NCBI GenBank assembly: GCA_021734345.1
Contig: JAIPJC010000005.1
Coordinates: forward strand, 1-58,437
Source of the DNA: Kiritimatiellales bacterium
GTDB taxonomy: Bacteria > Verrucomicrobiota > Kiritimatiellia > Kiritimatiellales > Pontiellaceae
DNA length: 58,437 bases
Reading direction: 5' to 3'
Both the position numbers and the translations under genes were made by a program. This document shows, piece by piece, positions 48,519 through 58,437 of the stretch. Within the stretch, counting starts at the first letter, position 1. Each line of letters begins with the position of its first letter. Under the pieces are notes generated by a model. That model was given only the letters and a program-made list of their open reading frames with translations. It had not been told where the DNA came from and ran no database searches.

Positions 48519-51185
48519 TTAGAACTCGAATCCGACCACGAGCGGCTTGTCCGAAGCAAAACCGGGAACTGAAAATTCCACGACATCGCCCGCTTCCATG
48601 CCCGGGACCGCGCCGGGACCCGTGAACGGGAATACGCGTCCTTCCGCTGGTTTCAGCACTTTGAATCCGGTCTGGACTTCCTTCCCGTTCACGCTGAACC
48701 GCACGGGCGTTTCGCCCGCCGGGACGTGCAGGCGCAGCGTCCAGTTGCGCTTGAAGTCCTTCGGAAGGAAGCCGCCTTCCGAAGGATCGATCCGCAACGT
48801 GGTTTTTCCTTTTTCCGTTTCCATGGCCACGCGCGTCCGGCTGAACCCTGCCTTGAGATAGCCGTTCGAAAGGCCGTCGTCCTCGTAGATTTCCCGCTGG
48901 GTTTTCCCGGCCTTCGGAACAAAGGCATCCACCGTCAGGCTGTCCCAAACCGGCGTGCCGGAAGACATGCGCAGCGGTGTTGTGAAGACCATGCCGCCTT
49001 CGCGCACATACATCGGCGTGTGCTCCAGATCGGAAACGACCGTGATCGTCTTCGGGCCTTCCAGCGTTTTGCCGGTCCAGGCGTCCTGCCAGCGCCCGGG
49101 CGGGAGCCAGAGCGAGCGGGTTTGGTGTGTCGTATCGCTGGTCTGGTCGGCCAGTCCCATGAACAGGTTGCACTCTCCGCCGCCCTTCTGGGCAAACTCC
49201 AGCTTGATCGGATAGGACTTCCCGGCTTCCAGCTTGATCCGGGCCTTGGTCAATCCGATCTCCTTGCGGGTTCTCAACACATCCTTGCGAGTGATCAGTT
49301 CGGTATCTCCGATCCACAGCTTGGAGCCGTCTTTGGACGACATCCCGAATTCGTATTCCGCGGTTTTTTCCACCGGCCCGATCATGCCGGTCCAGCGCAC
49401 TGAAACCCCGGTCATGGGCAGTCCTTGCGGACGTTTTTTCCAGTCGTAGAATAACTTTTCGTCGGTGCGCACCAGCTTCGGTTCCCCGGCCAGTTTTTCA
49501 TTGTCGAAATATTCCGCCCGCAAGCCCGGCTTCCCGTCCGGCGTCTTGAGTAGGGACGTCGGAATGGGGTCGAGCCCGCTGTAGCATTGGGGGGCAACCA
49601 GCAGATCCTCGCCGAAAAGATACTGGAGTCCGTCGGCGGCTTCCGGATATTGCGGCCACTGGGCGTCGCAACGCTGCAGGAGCGGGGTTCCGTCGTCGTA
49701 GGTGCGGCGGGCGGCGGTGTAGATGGTCGGCAGCAACTGGTAGCGCAAGCTGGTATATTCGCGGCAGATGTCCTCGGCCTCTTTGCCGTAGGCCCAGGGA
49801 TAGTGCACCGTTTTCGGATAGCTATGCAGGCGGGGCAGCGGCGAAAAGACGCCGAACTGGAGCCAGCGCGTAAACAGTTCGGGTGTCGGCAGCAGGACGT
49901 GTCCGCCCAAGTCCTCGTTGATATATGGCATCATGCGGTCGATGCCGCTATCGACGCCGTTTTCGATGCCCGACCGCAGCTCCTCCCAGAACGCCAGCGT
50001 ATCGCCCGTCCACCAGATCGGATAGCGGTGCGCCGCCGGGTGGCTTGGGGTAAGCCGCATCCCCGCCCAGATTCCATCCACGTTGGACATGATCAGCGGA
50101 CGCCGGTCGGGACGGTTCTTGAGCGTCATGTCGTGGTAGACCACCATGCCCCAGAACTCGATGGTCAGCCCGTCCGGCGCCTTCAGGTGCTTGCCCCAGT
50201 TCTTGTCGTACCACCAGGCGTCGGCCCCGATGTCCAGCAGGCTATCGACGCCCGCCTGGCGATAGGCCAGCTCCTTCGGATCCAGCGGTCCGGGCGTCTG
50301 CGCTTCGGGATGGTCGTTGTACATGACCCGCACATTCTTCCCATGCGCACGGGCGAGATAGCGTTCCATGTCGGGGAACAGATTGGTGTTCACCCCGTAG
50401 CCGCTTGACGCCCCGACGCGCCAATCCGTATCGCACACCAGTACGTCCAGCGGAAATCCCTTTGCCCGGAATTCATCCATCAGATCCAGCGACTCCTGCT
50501 CCGAGTAGGGCCAGAAACGGCTGAACCACAGGCCGAATGCAAACAGCGGCGGCATCGGGACGGGGCCGGTCAGCTTCAGGAATTCCTGCCGGAACGCCGT
50601 ATAATCGCTGCCCGCCGGAACAAAGAGATACAAATCCCGGGCCTGGTTCGCCGTATCCCACCCGGACGTTTCCTTGTTTTCAACACAGGTGGCCGGGGCG
50701 ACGGCCGCACCCCAGGCGGGCGGAACCAGCCGGGGCATATCCGGCATCACCCAAACCTTGGACATGGCGGCGGGTGTCGGCAGAAAGTCCGCCTTCAAAT
50801 CGTCCTTGGAAATGGTATGGAGCACTTCGCCCGCAGGATTGCGCAGCTGGATTCCTTCCAAGCCGCGGGTCCTCTCCGGAATTTCGATCTGATAGGCGGA
50901 CGACGTCAGCAACACCTTGCCGTCCTTTTTTTCGACCTTCAGCGGAATGCCGGCCCAGTCGCGGTTCACCACGGTCAGCGTATTCCGGTCCTCGAAGCCC
51001 TCCGGCCCTTTTTGCTCGATGCGCACCAGCGTTGGCGATAGCGCCTGCACCCGCACATTGCCCACGATGGATTCGCCCGCGACTGCCGCCTGGGAACCGG
51101 CTATGAGCACAATACCAAGGAAGGGCAGGAGGTGAATAGTCCGCGAACGGCGCGAGGTGGTTGGCTTGGTCGTAAAACATTTCAT
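48519..51185 (-). CDS. GH31 glycoside hydrolase with PA14 domain
   Basis: The 888-aa exported enzyme starts at ATG 51185 with AGGAAA upstream and has a signal peptide (LLPFLGIVLIAGSQAAVA). The GH31 (alpha/beta)8 barrel spans about residues 200-530. Motifs include LWFSRFWPYSEQESLDL, the nucleophile Asp327 in DAWWYDKNWGKH and the general acid Asp395 in IWWTGDTLAFWEEL. A PA14 domain (about 550-680, GLRAEYFDNEKL) follows, then C-terminal beta-sandwiches. GH31 with an inserted PA14 is known among alpha-xylosidase-like and alpha-glucosidase-like enzymes. The substrate here is probably a sulfated alpha-glycan, inferred from the two downstream sulfatases. Confidence 0.93.
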   Translation of the reverse strand: MKCFTTKPTTSRRSRTIHLLPFLGIVLIAGSQAAVAGESIVGNVRVQALSPTLVRIEQKGPEGFEDRNTLTVVNRDWAGIPLKVEKKDGKVLLTSSAYQIEIPERTRGLEGIQLRNPAGEVLHTISKDDLKADFLPTPAAMSKVWVMPDMPRLVPPAWGAAVAPATCVENKETSGWDTANQARDLYLFVPAGSDYTAFRQEFLKLTGPVPMPPLFAFGLWFSRFWPYSEQESLDLMDEFRAKGFPLDVLVCDTDWRVGASSGYGVNTNLFPDMERYLARAHGKNVRVMYNDHPEAQTPGPLDPKELAYRQAGVDSLLDIGADAWWYDKNWGKHLKAPDGLTIEFWGMVVYHDMTLKNRPDRRPLIMSNVDGIWAGMRLTPSHPAAHRYPIWWTGDTLAFWEELRSGIENGVDSGIDRMMPYINEDLGGHVLLPTPELFTRWLQFGVFSPLPRLHSYPKTVHYPWAYGKEAEDICREYTSLRYQLLPTIYTAARRTYDDGTPLLQRCDAQWPQYPEAADGLQYLFGEDLLVAPQCYSGLDPIPTSLLKTPDGKPGLRAEYFDNEKLAGEPKLVRTDEKLFYDWKKRPQGLPMTGVSVRWTGMIGPVEKTAEYEFGMSSKDGSKLWIGDTELITRKDVLRTRKEIGLTKARIKLEAGKSYPIKLEFAQKGGGECNLFMGLADQTSDTTHQTRSLWLPPGRWQDAWTGKTLEGPKTITVVSDLEHTPMYVREGGMVFTTPLRMSSGTPVWDSLTVDAFVPKAGKTQREIYEDDGLSNGYLKAGFSRTRVAMETEKGKTTLRIDPSEGGFLPKDFKRNWTLRLHVPAGETPVRFSVNGKEVQTGFKVLKPAEGRVFPFTGPGAVPGMEAGDVVEFSVPGFASDKPLVVGFEF

Positions 51186-51407
51186 TGGGTTTCCTTTCAA
51201 GTTGTAAACCGTGGTTCAGCCCCACAAGTTCGTCCTGGATTCAGACGAATGCGGGGAAATTGATACCGGGAAAAGCCGCCGGGACGCAAGGGCAATATCC
51301 CATGAACACCCTTATCGATTCGTCAAGCAACGTTTCGTCGCCGCCGAGCTGGACAGGCAGCGTCCTAAATGCGGCAAGCCTTGTACGGATCGCCAACGCA
51401 GACAGCA

Positions 51408-52244
51408 TTAGCCGGGTTTTTTGTAGTGCCGTGGTGTTACGCCCGTCGCGTTCTTGAACGCCTTGGAGAAGGCGTCGGCGTTTTCATATCCAAGTTCTTC
51501 GGCGATTTCCTGCAACGTCCAGCTGGTATGCATCAACAGGGCCGTCGCCGCGTTGATCCTGAGTCGCGTGAGATATTTTTTGGGAGATTGATACGCACTC
51601 CCCTTGAACAGGTTGTAGAGCGTTCCCCGGCTTATGGTGAAGTGCCGGGCGATCTCCTCCACATCCTGGATTCCCTGGAACTGCTCTTCCATGTATTGCA
51701 CAACGCGCAACAACCGGGGATCCGGCAGGGATCCTGGATCCTGGCGGCTGTTGGCAACCAGGCATTCCAGCAGAAACGTTGCAAACAGATCGCACAGGTC
51801 GGTGGTTTGTTCTTTCGGAGCATTTGCGACCAAATTGAAAAATGCCTTCGTTATTTCGATTATTTCCGCTCCGTTGCACAGGTGGAGCCCTATGCACGCT
51901 TTCGGAAACAGGCGCATCCATTGGGGGAGCACATCGGCAGAGAAATAGAAGACGAATATTTCCAGCGTACGGTCGTCTGTTTTGACAAAGTCGTATGGCT
52001 CGTCCGGCCACCGGACGGCAACAGTGCCCGGACGCAGCAACATGTCCTGCTTGCAATGCGTGAAATGGGCCTCGCCGACAACCGGTATTACGATCGAAGG
52101 ACATTCGCAGACGACGTTGCGTATGTCCATTTGCGCTTCGCGCACCGCCCGGTAGGCCTTCGTCATCCTTGCGCCCGGCCTGGGAACGATCCCGATGTTT
52201 TCGCAATAACGGTCGATGTAATGGGCGTGTGCGGTTTTTTTCAT
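51408..52244 (-). CDS. AraC-family transcriptional regulator 2
   Basis: The 278-aa regulator has an N-terminal sensor domain of about 170 residues (LLRPGTVAVRWPDEPYDFV, FFVFYFSADV-like strands). Its C-terminal AraC domain has EEIARHFTISRGTLYNLFKG and QEIAEELGYENADAFSKAFK. It lies upstream of the GH31-sulfatase operon on the same strand, with 222 bases between, and divergent from the beta-strand-repeat genes. It is the natural candidate to control either, probably in response to an oligosaccharide. Confidence 0.93.
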   Translation of the reverse strand: MKKTAHAHYIDRYCENIGIVPRPGARMTKAYRAVREAQMDIRNVVCECPSIVIPVVGEAHFTHCKQDMLLRPGTVAVRWPDEPYDFVKTDDRTLEIFVFYFSADVLPQWMRLFPKACIGLHLCNGAEIIEITKAFFNLVANAPKEQTTDLCDLFATFLLECLVANSRQDPGSLPDPRLLRVVQYMEEQFQGIQDVEEIARHFTISRGTLYNLFKGSAYQSPKKYLTRLRINAATALLMHTSWTLQEIAEELGYENADAFSKAFKNATGVTPRHYKKPG

Positions 52245-52597: not shown

Positions 52598-54142
52598 ATG
52601 AAGAAGAAAATCATGGGCGTATTGGCAGGTATCGGACTGTGCCTCTCGGCACAGGCGGCGGATTCGGCGTGGACGCTGGATGGCAACGGGAACTGGAATG
52701 TGAACGCGAACTGGGACGGGAACTATCCTGGAGCCGTCAGTCCGAGCACCACCAGTCCAGATACGGCGTATTTCACCAACTCGATCACGGCGGATCGCAC
52801 GATCACGATCCCCAGCAGCTACAACATCGGCAGCATTGCATTCGGGAACACCAGCGCCAACGCCTATATAGTCGGTGCGCAGGCTCTCCGGGTTATCTAC
52901 CTGAGCAACGGCGGCGTCATCCAAAGTCTTGCCGGAACAGGTATCCACAATGACCAGATCGGTTCAAAGCTTGCCCTCGTAGGCGATGGCGGCTCGTACA
53001 CCTTCCGCAATGATTCCACCGTCGGAGGACTGCTGATCAACAAGGCGGTGAGCGGCTCTTCCACGGCTGGGAACACGACCACCCTCTATCTGGATGGTTC
53101 ATCCACGGTTACCAGCATAGGCGGCCAGAACACGGCGGTCGGTGCGGCCATCGATGACGGCGGCAATGGAGGCAAACTGGCGGTGGTCAAGAACGGAAAC
53201 GGTTTGTGGACTCTTTCCGGCAACAATACCTTTACCGGCGGCCTCGCCGTCAATGCCGGAACCATTCGCTATTTTGGTAACGGCTCAACCTGTCTGGGCG
53301 CGGGATCCGTCACGATCGCCGACGGGGTCACCTTCAACAAGGCCAACAACAGCACCGTGCTCGTCAATAACCAGATGATCGTAAACGGCAATTTCGAGTT
53401 CAAGGGCAACAGCGACAACAACGACTGGAGCGGAGCGATGGATCTCGCGGCCGGGACGCGGACGATCACGGCGAATGCGAACCTGACGGTTTCCGGCGGC
53501 ATTTCCAACGGCGGCCTGACCAAGGCGGGTTCCGCGGTGCTGACCCTCTCTGGCGCGAACATCTACAGTGGCGGCACCACCGTTTCCGGCGGGACGTTGC
53601 TGATCAATGGCGACAACTCCGGCGCGACGGGCGCGGTGACGGTGGATGCCGGCGGAGTCCTGGGTGGAAGCGGCATCATCGGCGGCGCGGTGACGGTCAA
53701 TGCGGACGGGACGCTCTCGGCCGGCAACAGCCCCGGCACGCTGGCTTTCAACGACAACCTGACGCTGTCCACAGGCTCGACCAACATCATGGAGATCTCC
53801 GACACGGCCTACGACATCCTGACGGGCGACGGTGCAAACGCACTGGTAGTGGCCGGTGAGACGGTCTTCGACTTCACCCTGTTCAGCGGCGGAGTCACCA
53901 ACGGCTACTCCATCGCGTTGGCCGACATGTTCGTCAACTGGGCGTCGGTCGACCTGACTGGCGCAACCTATTCGGCCGCGGGCCTTGGCGCAGGACAGTC
54001 GCTTGACCTCACCGGCGGCAACCTGACCGTCATCCCGGAACCGGCCACGCTGGGCCTGGTGAGGCCTGGTGATCGCATTGGGCGCCGGGCTCGTGTGGGT
54101 TCGCCGCGTGTTCATGGTGTAGTGGTTTTTGTGTGCAGGTAA
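52598..54142 (+). CDS. Autotransporter-associated beta-strand repeat protein with PEP-CTERM anchor out of frame
   Basis: The 514-aa product starts at ATG 52598 with GAGGAAG upstream and has a signal peptide (KKKIMGVLAGIGLCLSAQAA). The body is Gly/Asn/Thr-rich beta structure with repeat units at about residues 195-225 (VVKNGNGLWTLSGNNTFTGG) and 305-335 (KAGSAVLTLSGANIYSGGTT), matching the autotransporter-associated beta-strand repeat. The C-terminus has VIPEPATLGLV, the PEP-CTERM signature, but then reads RPGDRIGRRARVG instead of a membrane helix. A 10-bp tandem duplication causes this. Removing one copy restores GLVIALGAGLVWVRRVFMV and a stop at 54120-54122, giving a 504-aa exosortase-type substrate. 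As written, it would lack an anchor. Confidence 0.88.
   Translation: MKKKIMGVLAGIGLCLSAQAADSAWTLDGNGNWNVNANWDGNYPGAVSPSTTSPDTAYFTNSITADRTITIPSSYNIGSIAFGNTSANAYIVGAQALRVIYLSNGGVIQSLAGTGIHNDQIGSKLALVGDGGSYTFRNDSTVGGLLINKAVSGSSTAGNTTTLYLDGSSTVTSIGGQNTAVGAAIDDGGNGGKLAVVKNGNGLWTLSGNNTFTGGLAVNAGTIRYFGNGSTCLGAGSVTIADGVTFNKANNSTVLVNNQMIVNGNFEFKGNSDNNDWSGAMDLAAGTRTITANANLTVSGGISNGGLTKAGSAVLTLSGANIYSGGTTVSGGTLLINGDNSGATGAVTVDAGGVLGGSGIIGGAVTVNADGTLSAGNSPGTLAFNDNLTLSTGSTNIMEISDTAYDILTGDGANALVVAGETVFDFTLFSGGVTNGYSIALADMFVNWASVDLTGATYSAAGLGAGQSLDLTGGNLTVIPEPATLGLVRPGDRIGRRARVGSPRVHGVVVFVCR
54053..54072 (+). repeat. Perfect 10-bp tandem duplication causing a frameshift
   Basis: GGCCTGGTGA occurs at 54053-54062 and again at 54063-54072 with no difference. 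It lies immediately after the Pro-Glu-Pro codons of the preceding feature. It shifts the reading frame by one base, so the hydrophobic helix and terminal Arg residues are read out of frame. Confidence 0.95.
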
Positions 54143-54164
54143 AAAACAAACGGGAGGAACGGAA

Positions 54165-55862
54165 ATGAAAAAGATAGTCATGGCAGTAGCAATCGCGATG
54201 GGTTTGTCTCTCGCGGCACAGGCGGCCAGCGATAGCTGGAACGTGGATGCGGATGGCAGTTATACGAATACCGCCAATTGGCTCGGTGGAGTTGTCCCCG
54301 GCGTTGCCAACGGCACCACCACCTCGGACGAGGCGGCGTTTTCATACGCCCTCACGTCGAACTGCACCGTTACGTTGCCCAGCATCTATGCCATTGGCAC
54401 CATTACCTTCGGCAACACCTCCACCAACGGCTACCTGCTTACCGGTTCAACGTTCCGCATCAATAACGGCGGCGTGATCCAAACCCTGGCCGGCACGGGC
54501 AACCACAACGACACCATTGCGTCGACCATCAACCTGCGGGGTCTGGGCAACAGCGTTATCACCATCCGCAACGATTCCGTCGGAAACACGGCCGGACTGG
54601 TGATTAGCGGTGCCATCAACTCCACGGTCCCTGCCGGAAAGACATTCACGCTTGTTCTGGACGGTGTCAGCACGGCAGCCGGCATTGGTGGAACCACAAG
54701 AAACAACACCATTTCCGGCGTTGTCGGCGACGATGCCGACGGCACGGTTGCCGTGGTCAAGAACGGGACGGGCCTTTGGACGCTGACCGGCAACAACGCC
54801 TTCGAAGGCGGCCTGACGGTCAATGCCGGAACCATCCGCTACTTCGGAGCCGGCAACACGTGCTTCGGGCGGGGAACCGTTACCATCAACGATGGCGTCA
54901 CCTTCAGCAAGGCCAACAGCAGCGTAGTGGTCGTAACCAACCAGATGGTGGTGAACGGCGATTTCACCTTCGCAAACAACAATACCGGCAACGATTGGGC
55001 CGGGGCAATGGATTTTGCCGGCGGCGACCGCAAGATTACCGCAAACGCGAACCTGACCATTTCCGGCGCCATCACCAACGCGGAACGCCTGACCAAGGCC
55101 GGGTCGGCCATCCTGACGCTTTCCGGGGCGAACACGTTCACCCAGCTTTTGGTGTCCGCAGGCACTGTTATCGCGGCTGGCGATGGAGTGCTGGGCACCG
55201 GACGGGTTTCGCTGATCAACAGCGGATCGCTGGTGCTTACCAATGGCGTGTTGAACGACTATATTGCCGACACGGCGGATCTGGCGATGGCGACCAATTC
55301 CACTGTCACCCTAGCGCTGGACTTTTCCGGCACCGACACCGTACACAGCATTTCGCTGGACAGCGGGGCCACCACGCTCCCGGCCGGAACCTACGGCGCG
55401 GCGGATCTCACCGGACTGGGCACGGCAACCTACACGGGCACCGGTTTCCTGACGGCGACTTCGGGCGGCAGTGGATACGATACGTGGGCGGGTAGCTGGG
55501 GCTTGTCTCTGGGCGCTCCGACCGACGACTACGACAACGACGGCCTGCTCAACATCTACGAGTATGGGCTCGGTGGCGACCCGACCAATGGAAACAGCCA
55601 AGGGAATGCTCCGGTATTCGGTACGCAGACCCTCGGCGGAACCAACTACTTCGGCTACATCTATCCGCAGTTGAAGGATACGAATAGCGGCATCAGCTAC
55701 ACGCTGGCGCTCACCTCCGATCTTGTAAACGGGCCTTGGACGACCAATTCGGGGTACATCGTATACGGAACGAACGTGATGGGTTCCGGTGATTTCGACT
55801 ACGTCACCAACGTTACCACCACGGTGGCAGGCCAGAAATTCATCCGGCTGATCATCGAATAG
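54165..55862 (+). CDS. Autotransporter-associated beta-strand repeat protein, paralogue with calcium-type C-terminus
   Basis: The 565-aa protein starts at ATG 54165 with a GGAGG site and has a signal peptide (VMAVAIAMGLSLAAQAAS). Residues 20-330 parallel the preceding gene closely (NNGGVIQTLAGTGNHND, VVKNGTGLWTLTGNNAFEGG, LTKAGSAILTLSGANTFTQL), so the two are tandem duplicates. The C-terminus differs: there is no PEP-CTERM, but a calcium-type motif (DDYDNDGLLNIYEYGLGGDP) and a terminal beta-domain with YTLALTSDLVNGPW, related to the end of the 901-aa protein at 15244-17949. It is probably a secreted or surface structural protein. A strong terminator follows. Confidence 0.88.
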   Translation: MKKIVMAVAIAMGLSLAAQAASDSWNVDADGSYTNTANWLGGVVPGVANGTTTSDEAAFSYALTSNCTVTLPSIYAIGTITFGNTSTNGYLLTGSTFRINNGGVIQTLAGTGNHNDTIASTINLRGLGNSVITIRNDSVGNTAGLVISGAINSTVPAGKTFTLVLDGVSTAAGIGGTTRNNTISGVVGDDADGTVAVVKNGTGLWTLTGNNAFEGGLTVNAGTIRYFGAGNTCFGRGTVTINDGVTFSKANSSVVVVTNQMVVNGDFTFANNNTGNDWAGAMDFAGGDRKITANANLTISGAITNAERLTKAGSAILTLSGANTFTQLLVSAGTVIAAGDGVLGTGRVSLINSGSLVLTNGVLNDYIADTADLAMATNSTVTLALDFSGTDTVHSISLDSGATTLPAGTYGAADLTGLGTATYTGTGFLTATSGGSGYDTWAGSWGLSLGAPTDDYDNDGLLNIYEYGLGGDPTNGNSQGNAPVFGTQTLGGTNYFGYIYPQLKDTNSGISYTLALTSDLVNGPWTTNSGYIVYGTNVMGSGDFDYVTNVTTTVAGQKFIRLIIE

Positions 55863-56037: not shown

Positions 56038-56150
56038 CTTTTCCTTTGTTGCAAGATTCTTGATGGGACGGCTTTTTGATGCAATCGTGCCTTCGGTTTT
56101 TTCGAGTCTAGTGGGCTCCAGCCGGGAGCCTTAAAACAAGGATGCTTTTT

Positions 56151-58437
56151 ATGGGAACGAAACATGTGATCACGCTGTCGGCCTGGGTTTTTTTTGGAGC
56201 CGCGTTGGTTAGCGCGGCAGATTCGACCAACGTTGCGCCGCGGTTTGTCCCTCCGCTGGACACGCCCCGCAACCGGCTGTTTAATGACGGCTGGCTTTTT
56301 CAGCGCGGTGATGCGGACGGCGCGGAGGTTGTGACGTTTGATGATGCGAGCTGGCGTCCGTTGTGTCTTCCGCACGACTGGAGCGTTGAGCCGATCCCTT
56401 CTACTGCATCGGCCTTGCCGGTACTGGAGCCGGTTCCGGGCGAGTGGCGTTATACGGTCGGCGACTCCGACGAGTATGCCGACATCGGGTTTGATGACTC
56501 CGGATGGCAGAAGATCACGCTACCTTTGCAGATACCGGGAACCCGGCCCAAAACCTACTACTGGTTCCGCCGGGAGTTTCTGGTTCCGCCGGAGCTGGCC
56601 GGTCAAGACGTGATTTTCAATCTCGGGTGCATTGACGATTGCGACGAGTTTTACGTCAACGGCGAAAAGATCGGCGATACCGGCGTGATGCCGAAGAATC
56701 AGCCGCAAGGGAACTGCATGCCGGCCTTCACGGAAACCCGAAAATATACCGTTTCGGCGCGGTTACTGAAACCCGGCAAGAACCTGCTCGCTGTTTGCGT
56801 CTACAACAACAAGGGCGCGGGCGGGTTTATTGCTTCGAAGGGCAGGGAGGCTGATTCTGTCGAAGTCGTCGGCCCCTTCAACCGCAAGGCGATCGGTGGA
56901 ACGCGCAGCGGGTATACGGTTGGCGGAACGGGCTGGTACCGCAAGCATTTCAAGGTCGATGCCGCCGACGCGGGCCGGCATTTCGAAATTTGTTTTGGCG
57001 GCGTTTATATGAACAGCGATGTCTGGATCAACGGGGAGCACCTCGGATTCCTTCCCTACGGCTACACCAGTTTCTATTATGATCTCACCCCGCACATCAA
57101 ACCCGGCGCGGAGAATGTCATCGCCGTCCGCGTGCGCAATGAAGGGGTCACCAGCCGCTGGTATCCCGGCAGCGGAATTTACCGCAACGTCTGGCTGACG
57201 AAGACCGATCCCGCCCACGTCCGCCGCTGGGGTGTGCAGATCCTGACGCCGGAAGCCGATGAGAAGAAAGCCGACGTCATTCTGAACACGATGATCGACG
57301 GGAACTTCAAAACCGGCGAACTGCGGATTCAACTGATCGACGAACAAGGTAAAACCGTTTCCGAAGGAAGCACAAAAGTGACTGCCGAAACGACTCCGCT
57401 CACGTTGACGGTGCAGAATCCAAAGCTCTGGTCGGTGGACCATCCGTATCTTTATACGGCGAAGGTGCAGCTGGTTCGCGGCAAAGACGTGATCGACGAA
57501 GTTGAAGAAACGTTCGGCATTCGCACGATTGCCTATTCGGTCGAGAAGGGCTTTCAGCTGAACGGCAAGACGATCAACATGTGGGGCGGCTGCGTCCACC
57601 ATGACAACGGACTGCTGGGTTCGGCGGCCTTTGACCGCGCCGAATACCGCAAGCTGGAGATCATGAAGCAGAACGGCTACAACGCGGTGCGTGGATCGCA
57701 CAACCCGATGAGCGACGCGTTCTACGACGCCTGCGATCGGCTCGGCCTGCTGGTGATGGACGAGGTGTTCGACATGTGGGATGTGCAGAAGACCCCGCAG
57801 GATTACGGCGGCGAAACGTTTAAAAAATGGAACGCCCTCGACATCGAATTGTGGTTAAGGCGGACGCGGAACCATCCGAGCATTGTCATCCGGAGTCTCG
57901 GCAACGAAATCGGGAACCGCGAGAAAAGCGAGGACGGCCTGTACAACATTTTGGCGGGCCTGAAAACGGAAGTCGAAAAATGGGATCCGACCCGTCCCGT
58001 AACCGGGGGAACGGCGCAGGCCTTTGACCAGCACAAGTATCTCGGCCTTTACGACGTCAAAGGCTACAACTACCGGGAAGACAAGATTGATGCGAATTAC
58101 AAAATCCATCCCGAATGGATTGTCATCTGCACAGAATCCATGCCCAGCGGAAACGCCCAGCTGAACACCTGGAACTTCGTCAATGACCGCCCGTGGGTCA
58201 CCGGCTCGTTTGTCTGGAGTGCGTTCGAATACATCGGCGAAAGCTGGTCCGGACAGGTGATGCTCAACGGCGAAGAAGCCGGATGGCCGTCCTACGCCGC
58301 CGCCTGCGGACTGATTGATATTACCGGCATTCCCAAAGGCGGGCAGCTTTTCCGCAACGTCATCAACGGTGCCAGCGATATGGAAATTCTGGTGCTTGAA
58401 CCGCCGCCCGCCGGACGTTCCTATCAGAACAAGCCCT
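56151..58437 (+). CDS. GH2 beta-galactosidase-like enzyme, 3'-truncated by window end
   Basis: The frame is open to the last base (762 codons visible). ATG 56151 follows AAGGA at eight bases; ATG 56142 is also in frame. A signal peptide is present (VITLSAWVFFGAALVSAA). The GH2 order is clear: sugar-binding domain, Ig-like domain (WYPGSGIYRNVWL) and catalytic barrel with GGCVHHDNGLLG, general acid Glu586 in SLGNEIGN and nucleophile Glu662 in VICTESMPS. The N-terminal domain is interrupted: LPHDWSVE (residues 73-80) and GPFNRKAIGG (241-250), which are adjacent in normal family members, are separated by about 160 residues that look like another jelly-roll (DDSGWQKITLPLQIPG, YYWFRREFLVP). The exact glycoside is unknown. 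Confidence 0.92.
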   Translation, partial: MGTKHVITLSAWVFFGAALVSAADSTNVAPRFVPPLDTPRNRLFNDGWLFQRGDADGAEVVTFDDASWRPLCLPHDWSVEPIPSTASALPVLEPVPGEWRYTVGDSDEYADIGFDDSGWQKITLPLQIPGTRPKTYYWFRREFLVPPELAGQDVIFNLGCIDDCDEFYVNGEKIGDTGVMPKNQPQGNCMPAFTETRKYTVSARLLKPGKNLLAVCVYNNKGAGGFIASKGREADSVEVVGPFNRKAIGGTRSGYTVGGTGWYRKHFKVDAADAGRHFEICFGGVYMNSDVWINGEHLGFLPYGYTSFYYDLTPHIKPGAENVIAVRVRNEGVTSRWYPGSGIYRNVWLTKTDPAHVRRWGVQILTPEADEKKADVILNTMIDGNFKTGELRIQLIDEQGKTVSEGSTKVTAETTPLTLTVQNPKLWSVDHPYLYTAKVQLVRGKDVIDEVEETFGIRTIAYSVEKGFQLNGKTINMWGGCVHHDNGLLGSAAFDRAEYRKLEIMKQNGYNAVRGSHNPMSDAFYDACDRLGLLVMDEVFDMWDVQKTPQDYGGETFKKWNALDIELWLRRTRNHPSIVIRSLGNEIGNREKSEDGLYNILAGLKTEVEKWDPTRPVTGGTAQAFDQHKYLGLYDVKGYNYREDKIDANYKIHPEWIVICTESMPSGNAQLNTWNFVNDRPWVTGSFVWSAFEYIGESWSGQVMLNGEEAGWPSYAAACGLIDITGIPKGGQLFRNVINGASDMEILVLEPPPAGRSYQNKP

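Follow-up and report, generated by a model that had tools for sequence, protein, structure and literature searches.

An exact 10-bp tandem duplication lies inside the PEP-CTERM sorting signal of a PATR-repeat gene in the window (the whole stretch of DNA that was analysed, 58,437 bases, which is contig C146 in full), and in the sequence as given the sorting signal is lost. The probable explanation is a recent frameshift, private to this lineage. The gene as written occupies 52598..54142 on the plus strand, from a start ATG at 52598-52600 to a stop TAA at 54140-54142, and encodes 514 amino acids with a signal peptide-like start, PATR repeats, a PEP motif and an out-of-frame tail. Its body matches the PATR profile PF12951 (5.1e-16) and TIGR02601 (1.3e-17), and a putative N-terminal signal peptide, MKKKIMGVLAGIGLCLSAQAADS, was judged by eye. 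The gene order around it runs from a glycoside hydrolase family 31 (GH31) protein carrying a PA14 domain (48519..51200, minus strand), which lies beyond a divergent AraC-family regulator (51408..52244, minus strand; HTH_18, 1.5e-21). These are followed by the PATR gene with the broken tail, a twin PATR-repeat gene (54165..55862, plus strand) that lacks a PEP-CTERM tail and ends in a 130-residue C-terminal module, and a glycoside hydrolase family 2 (GH2) protein (56142..58436, plus strand) truncated by the contig end at 58437.

The duplication consists of GGCCTGGTGA present twice, head to tail, at 54053..54072 on the plus strand (copies 54053-54062 and 54063-54072), and is as perfect as an earlier note on this DNA had claimed. 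There are exactly two copies, the repeated bases do not extend further on either side, and no homopolymer or multi-copy tract occurs at the site. Scanning the window for exact tandem duplications with a unit of 8 to 15 revealed none besides this one. The same note placed the duplication directly after the PEP codons; it is near them, but the PEP codons lie at 54035-54043, and three codons, Ala-Thr-Leu, intervene. Folded as DNA, without a control, the site gave hairpins in both the one-copy and the two-copy forms, and these were not used.

Upstream of the duplication, the frame runs for 488 codons without a stop and reaches the Ile-Pro-Glu-Pro codons that start the sorting signal (54032..54043, plus strand), the same IPEP as is found in the tails of intact paralogues. 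With one copy removed, the tail is VIPEPATLGLVIALGAGLVWVRRVFMV in a protein of 504 amino acids, and the frame across the site reads IPEPATLGLVIALGAGLVWVRRVFMV, giving the hydrophobic helix, Arg-Arg and stop that had been proposed. This one-copy tail scores 22.2 bits against the PEP-CTERM model TIGR02595 (cut-off 16). With two copies, the tail as written is VIPEPATLGLVRPGDRIGRRARVGSPRVHGVVVFVCR* in a protein of 514 amino acids, and it has no match to TIGR02595, so that the protein does not carry a PEP-CTERM signal in frame. The helix is lost as well: the best 15-residue Kyte-Doolittle mean falls to 1.01 in the two-copy tail, compared with 1.51 to 2.55 in 33 intact tails. The remainder of the former tail (54073..54132, plus strand), with its hydrophobic stretch, Arg-Arg and stop TAG, is now out of frame, and the old frame is still open.

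The machinery that would act on such a signal is encoded in the same genome. The exosortase gene that was to be looked for is present, with one above the cut-off, at positions 5428-6213 of contig C170 (G000:C170:5428-6213), scoring 172.9 bits against PF09721 and 147.4 bits against TIGR02602 (cut-off 105.55). Directly after it lies a DUF3485 gene, which we take to be EpsI-like. The best NCBIfam score of this exosortase (L001) is to exosortase A, at 154 bits, below that model's cut-off of 208. Together, the profile score of the one-copy tail, an intact paralogue tail and the exosortase bear out the description of the site as a destroyed PEP-CTERM anchor.

The intact paralogue is found in the same genome on contig C85 (L037). 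Its tail, VIPEPATLGLVIALGSGLVWVRRVFMV, differs from the one-copy tail by a single substitution, and 9 of the 27 codons differ between the two, 8 of them synonymously; among the 17 codons downstream of the duplication, 7 are changed, 6 of these synonymously. Silent changes are not in excess everywhere, since synonymous changes fail to dominate in three of the other comparisons (synonymous to nonsynonymous codons 7:7 for L026, 5:6 for L032 and 5:9 for L036, against 9:4 for L039 and 10:4 for L025). The gene order on C85 matches that in the window, with an AraC-type regulator, which there carries an IclR C-terminal domain, a PATR gene with an intact PEP-CTERM tail, a PATR gene without one, and GH2. 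Because the one-copy tail passes TIGR02595, the L037 tail is intact in a like gene setting and an exosortase is present, the ancestral state was very probably a single copy, and the sorting signal that the duplication breaks is very probably a real one.

At both loci, the AraC-type regulator and GH2 enclose two adjacent twins that are related in the body but differ in the tail, which is PEP-CTERM in one and the 130-residue module in the other. The twins of the window (52598-55862) share 51% identity over 393 aligned residues (residues 1-385 of the first gene), and those on C85 (L037 1009-4341) share 76% over 396. Since both loci have twins with different tails, PEP-tailed and PEP-less forms coexist without a switch. 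The module, which makes up the final 130 residues of the window's twin (55470-55859, plus strand), has no match in Pfam at E up to 5. It is present in 25 of 28 genomes of the genus, with 37 matches in the window's own genome and, where 150 candidates were scored in each, at least 110 in G005 and at least 139 in G021. Among 18 frames at the loci examined, leaving out the window copies and one truncated frame, 0 to 4 residues follow the module in 14, and 9, 14, 17 and 283 residues follow in the other four. The last of these is at L074 from 5338 onward (contig C122 of the same genome), where the module is internal, unlike in most. A single-sequence structure prediction of the module failed (mean pLDDT 35). 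It looks like a lineage-specific C-terminal module that perhaps serves sorting or attachment, a candidate domain that may merit more attention than the frameshift itself.

The PEP tails that were read in related genes are all intact. Among the genes fetched by whole-protein similarity, which are part of all such matches, 19 have a PEP tail, and every one of these tails is intact: six in the same genome (L032, L033, L036, L037, L038 and L039) and 13 in other genomes (L003 to L007, L009, L011, L020 and L025 to L029), six of the foreign frames being truncated at the locus start. Without its tail, the protein still finds 17 of the 19 through the body alone, at E up to 0.01, and misses L020 and L029. 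Counting every PEP tail read except that of the window, 33 of 33 are intact (20 from the same genome and 13 foreign), a set obtained from 38 rows by leaving out the window, its copies L002 and L024, and the chance PEP strings L018 and L062. As 14 of the 20 own tails come from stretches selected with PEP-CTERM models or from contigs that appeared in tables of this kind, and these models favour intact tails, the 33-tail set is biased towards intact tails; the 19-gene set was not chosen by its tails.

The earlier note had suggested a comparison with related genomes. The exact repeat is absent from the 27 other genomes of the genus (28 searched, including the window's own), and 19 comparable tails are intact, but a close orthologue was not found, the best match outside the genome having 47% identity over about 207 residues and shorter ones up to 50%. 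When up to two mismatches were allowed, the repeat matched in two of the 28 genomes, at the window's own site and at one place in G016; the latter was rejected as the same repeat, because it lies opposite a long open frame and outside any PEP tail. The species is represented by no second genome among those searched. A search of genome contigs returned three distant loci, and a search of viral contigs for an exact 26-base stretch returned no match, both being searches that may omit the window's own genome. The words private and recent accordingly rest on paralogues and distant relatives.

These comparisons also bear on a phase switch, in which gain and loss of a 10-bp copy would toggle the PEP-CTERM signal and the surface protein would be either sorted by exosortase or released. 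A change of one copy would switch the frame, a perfect adjacent repeat can in principle revert, and the pieces flanking the duplication are undamaged. A switch should, however, show a multi-copy tract, other copy numbers in relatives or mixed alleles, whereas the site has two copies only and no repeat tract, the 33 other PEP tails read are all intact, and the exact repeat is missing from the 27 other genomes, with the near match in G016 in no PEP tail. Nor would a switch be needed for both forms to exist, since a PEP-less twin stands at the locus already. We regard this reading as very improbable. Among the three options that had been offered, recent inactivation and assembly error remain, while the phase switch has gained no positive evidence.

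The background rate of such duplications was estimated in a sample of 513,344 bases from this genome, made up of the window and 41 hand-picked stretches; the sample is not random, because the stretches surround matches to PEP-CTERM models or to the protein body, or come from contigs that had turned up in previous searches. Exact unit-10 duplications numbered two in this sample, against one in three order-3 Markov replicates (0.33 each). The model is rough, as its counts disagree with those observed for unit 8 (10 simulated, 3 observed) and unit 9 (3 simulated, 12 observed). Under it, one such duplication in an 80-base tail has a probability of about 5e-5, leaving uncounted that removal of one copy restores the motif. 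On the Markov control and the restored motif, a chance repeat was rejected.

The same sample has five exact tandem duplications that change the frame, with a unit of 8 or 10, a count that covers units from 8 upwards; a further 50 cases have a unit of 7. A long frame is broken at the window site only. The other four fall within open frames of 451, 578, 634 and 1703 residues. Omitting one copy at three of them extends another frame to 140-323 residues, in every case less than the frame that is open there anyway. These four break no evident frame, which speaks against frame noise across the assembly but leaves room for a single local error.

Such an error is the main rival to a recent private frameshift. 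It would be an artefact of assembly or consensus, in which two contig ends or strain variants were merged without collapse of their 10-base overlap; the real gene would then have one copy and a working signal. The draft, at 84.83% completeness and 2.3% contamination, is split into 176 contigs that total 3,247,271 bases, the repeat has exactly two copies and no microhomology, both flanks, each in its own frame, make up an intact gene, and the 19 comparable tails are all intact. Against an artefact, no long frame is broken by the other four frame-changing duplications (unit at least 8) of the hand-picked 513-kb sample, and the junction contains no N and lies 4.4 kb from the contig end. An artefact is possible, but we consider it unlikely. 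In a draft assembly of this kind, the duplication may be absent from the cells themselves.

A perfect short duplication without microhomology also has the look of a footprint of element excision, and the repeat could be a 10-bp target-site duplication left after a mobile element had gone; it is perfect, short and free of microhomology. Within the DDE_Tnp_1 family, the family covered by the search, a single transposase (IS4-type) was found in the genome, and the 3.5 kb examined at its locus contain no pair of 12-base terminal repeats bordered by an exact target duplication of 7-13 bp. This origin is the least probable of those considered.

A recent private frameshift therefore remains the reading that we prefer as probable. 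The ancestral gene would have encoded an exported PATR-repeat protein with a normal PEP-CTERM signal, beside glycoside hydrolase genes. Within that signal, one 10-bp tandem duplication would have shifted the frame by one base, so that a charged run of 26 residues replaces the membrane-spanning helix and Arg-Arg. The exosortase would then be left without this substrate, and the protein would be released or degraded rather than sorted. On this account the mutation would be real in cells, recent and private to the lineage. Simple slippage events often have flanking microhomology, and its absence at the repeat counts against the frameshift. The observation is sound, and the biology is ordinary.

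If real, the duplication would constitute a naturally occurring allele that costs an exosortase substrate its sorting, next to a twin protein without such a signal. It also illustrates that a frameshift in the tail hides a PEP-CTERM substrate from a profile search. A true phase switch, with an exosortase sorting signal that is phase-variable, would matter more. In the literature collection searched, no paper combines PEP-CTERM, exosortase and frameshift, and none joins PEP-CTERM with Kiritimatiell or with Pontiella; one paper contains PEP-CTERM, exosortase and phase variation, as separate matters.

The PEP motif, helix and basic cluster form the architecture described by Haft and others (PMC1569441). 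PEP-CTERM/exosortase (EpsH) sorting (TIGR02595, TIGR02602) is alike in the motif, helix and basic cluster of the one-copy reading and the paralogues, and in the exosortase; unlike that system, the window's helix and basic end are out of frame, and the protein as written fails to qualify. In a study of Xenorhabdus lrp mutants, spontaneous inactivation by tandem duplication is reported, and the authors conclude that the mutants are not phase variants (PMC6786866). As here, a direct duplication within a coding sequence breaks a gene, but that study describes three tandem duplications of 26-116 bp in cultured variants, whereas the present case involves 10 bp in one assembly. Tandem-repeat phase variation (PMC12817950) is alike in that repeat copy number alters a gene; there, promoter repeats of 54-57 bp occur in several copy-number states across strains, whereas here a single state, two copies, is seen in one genome.
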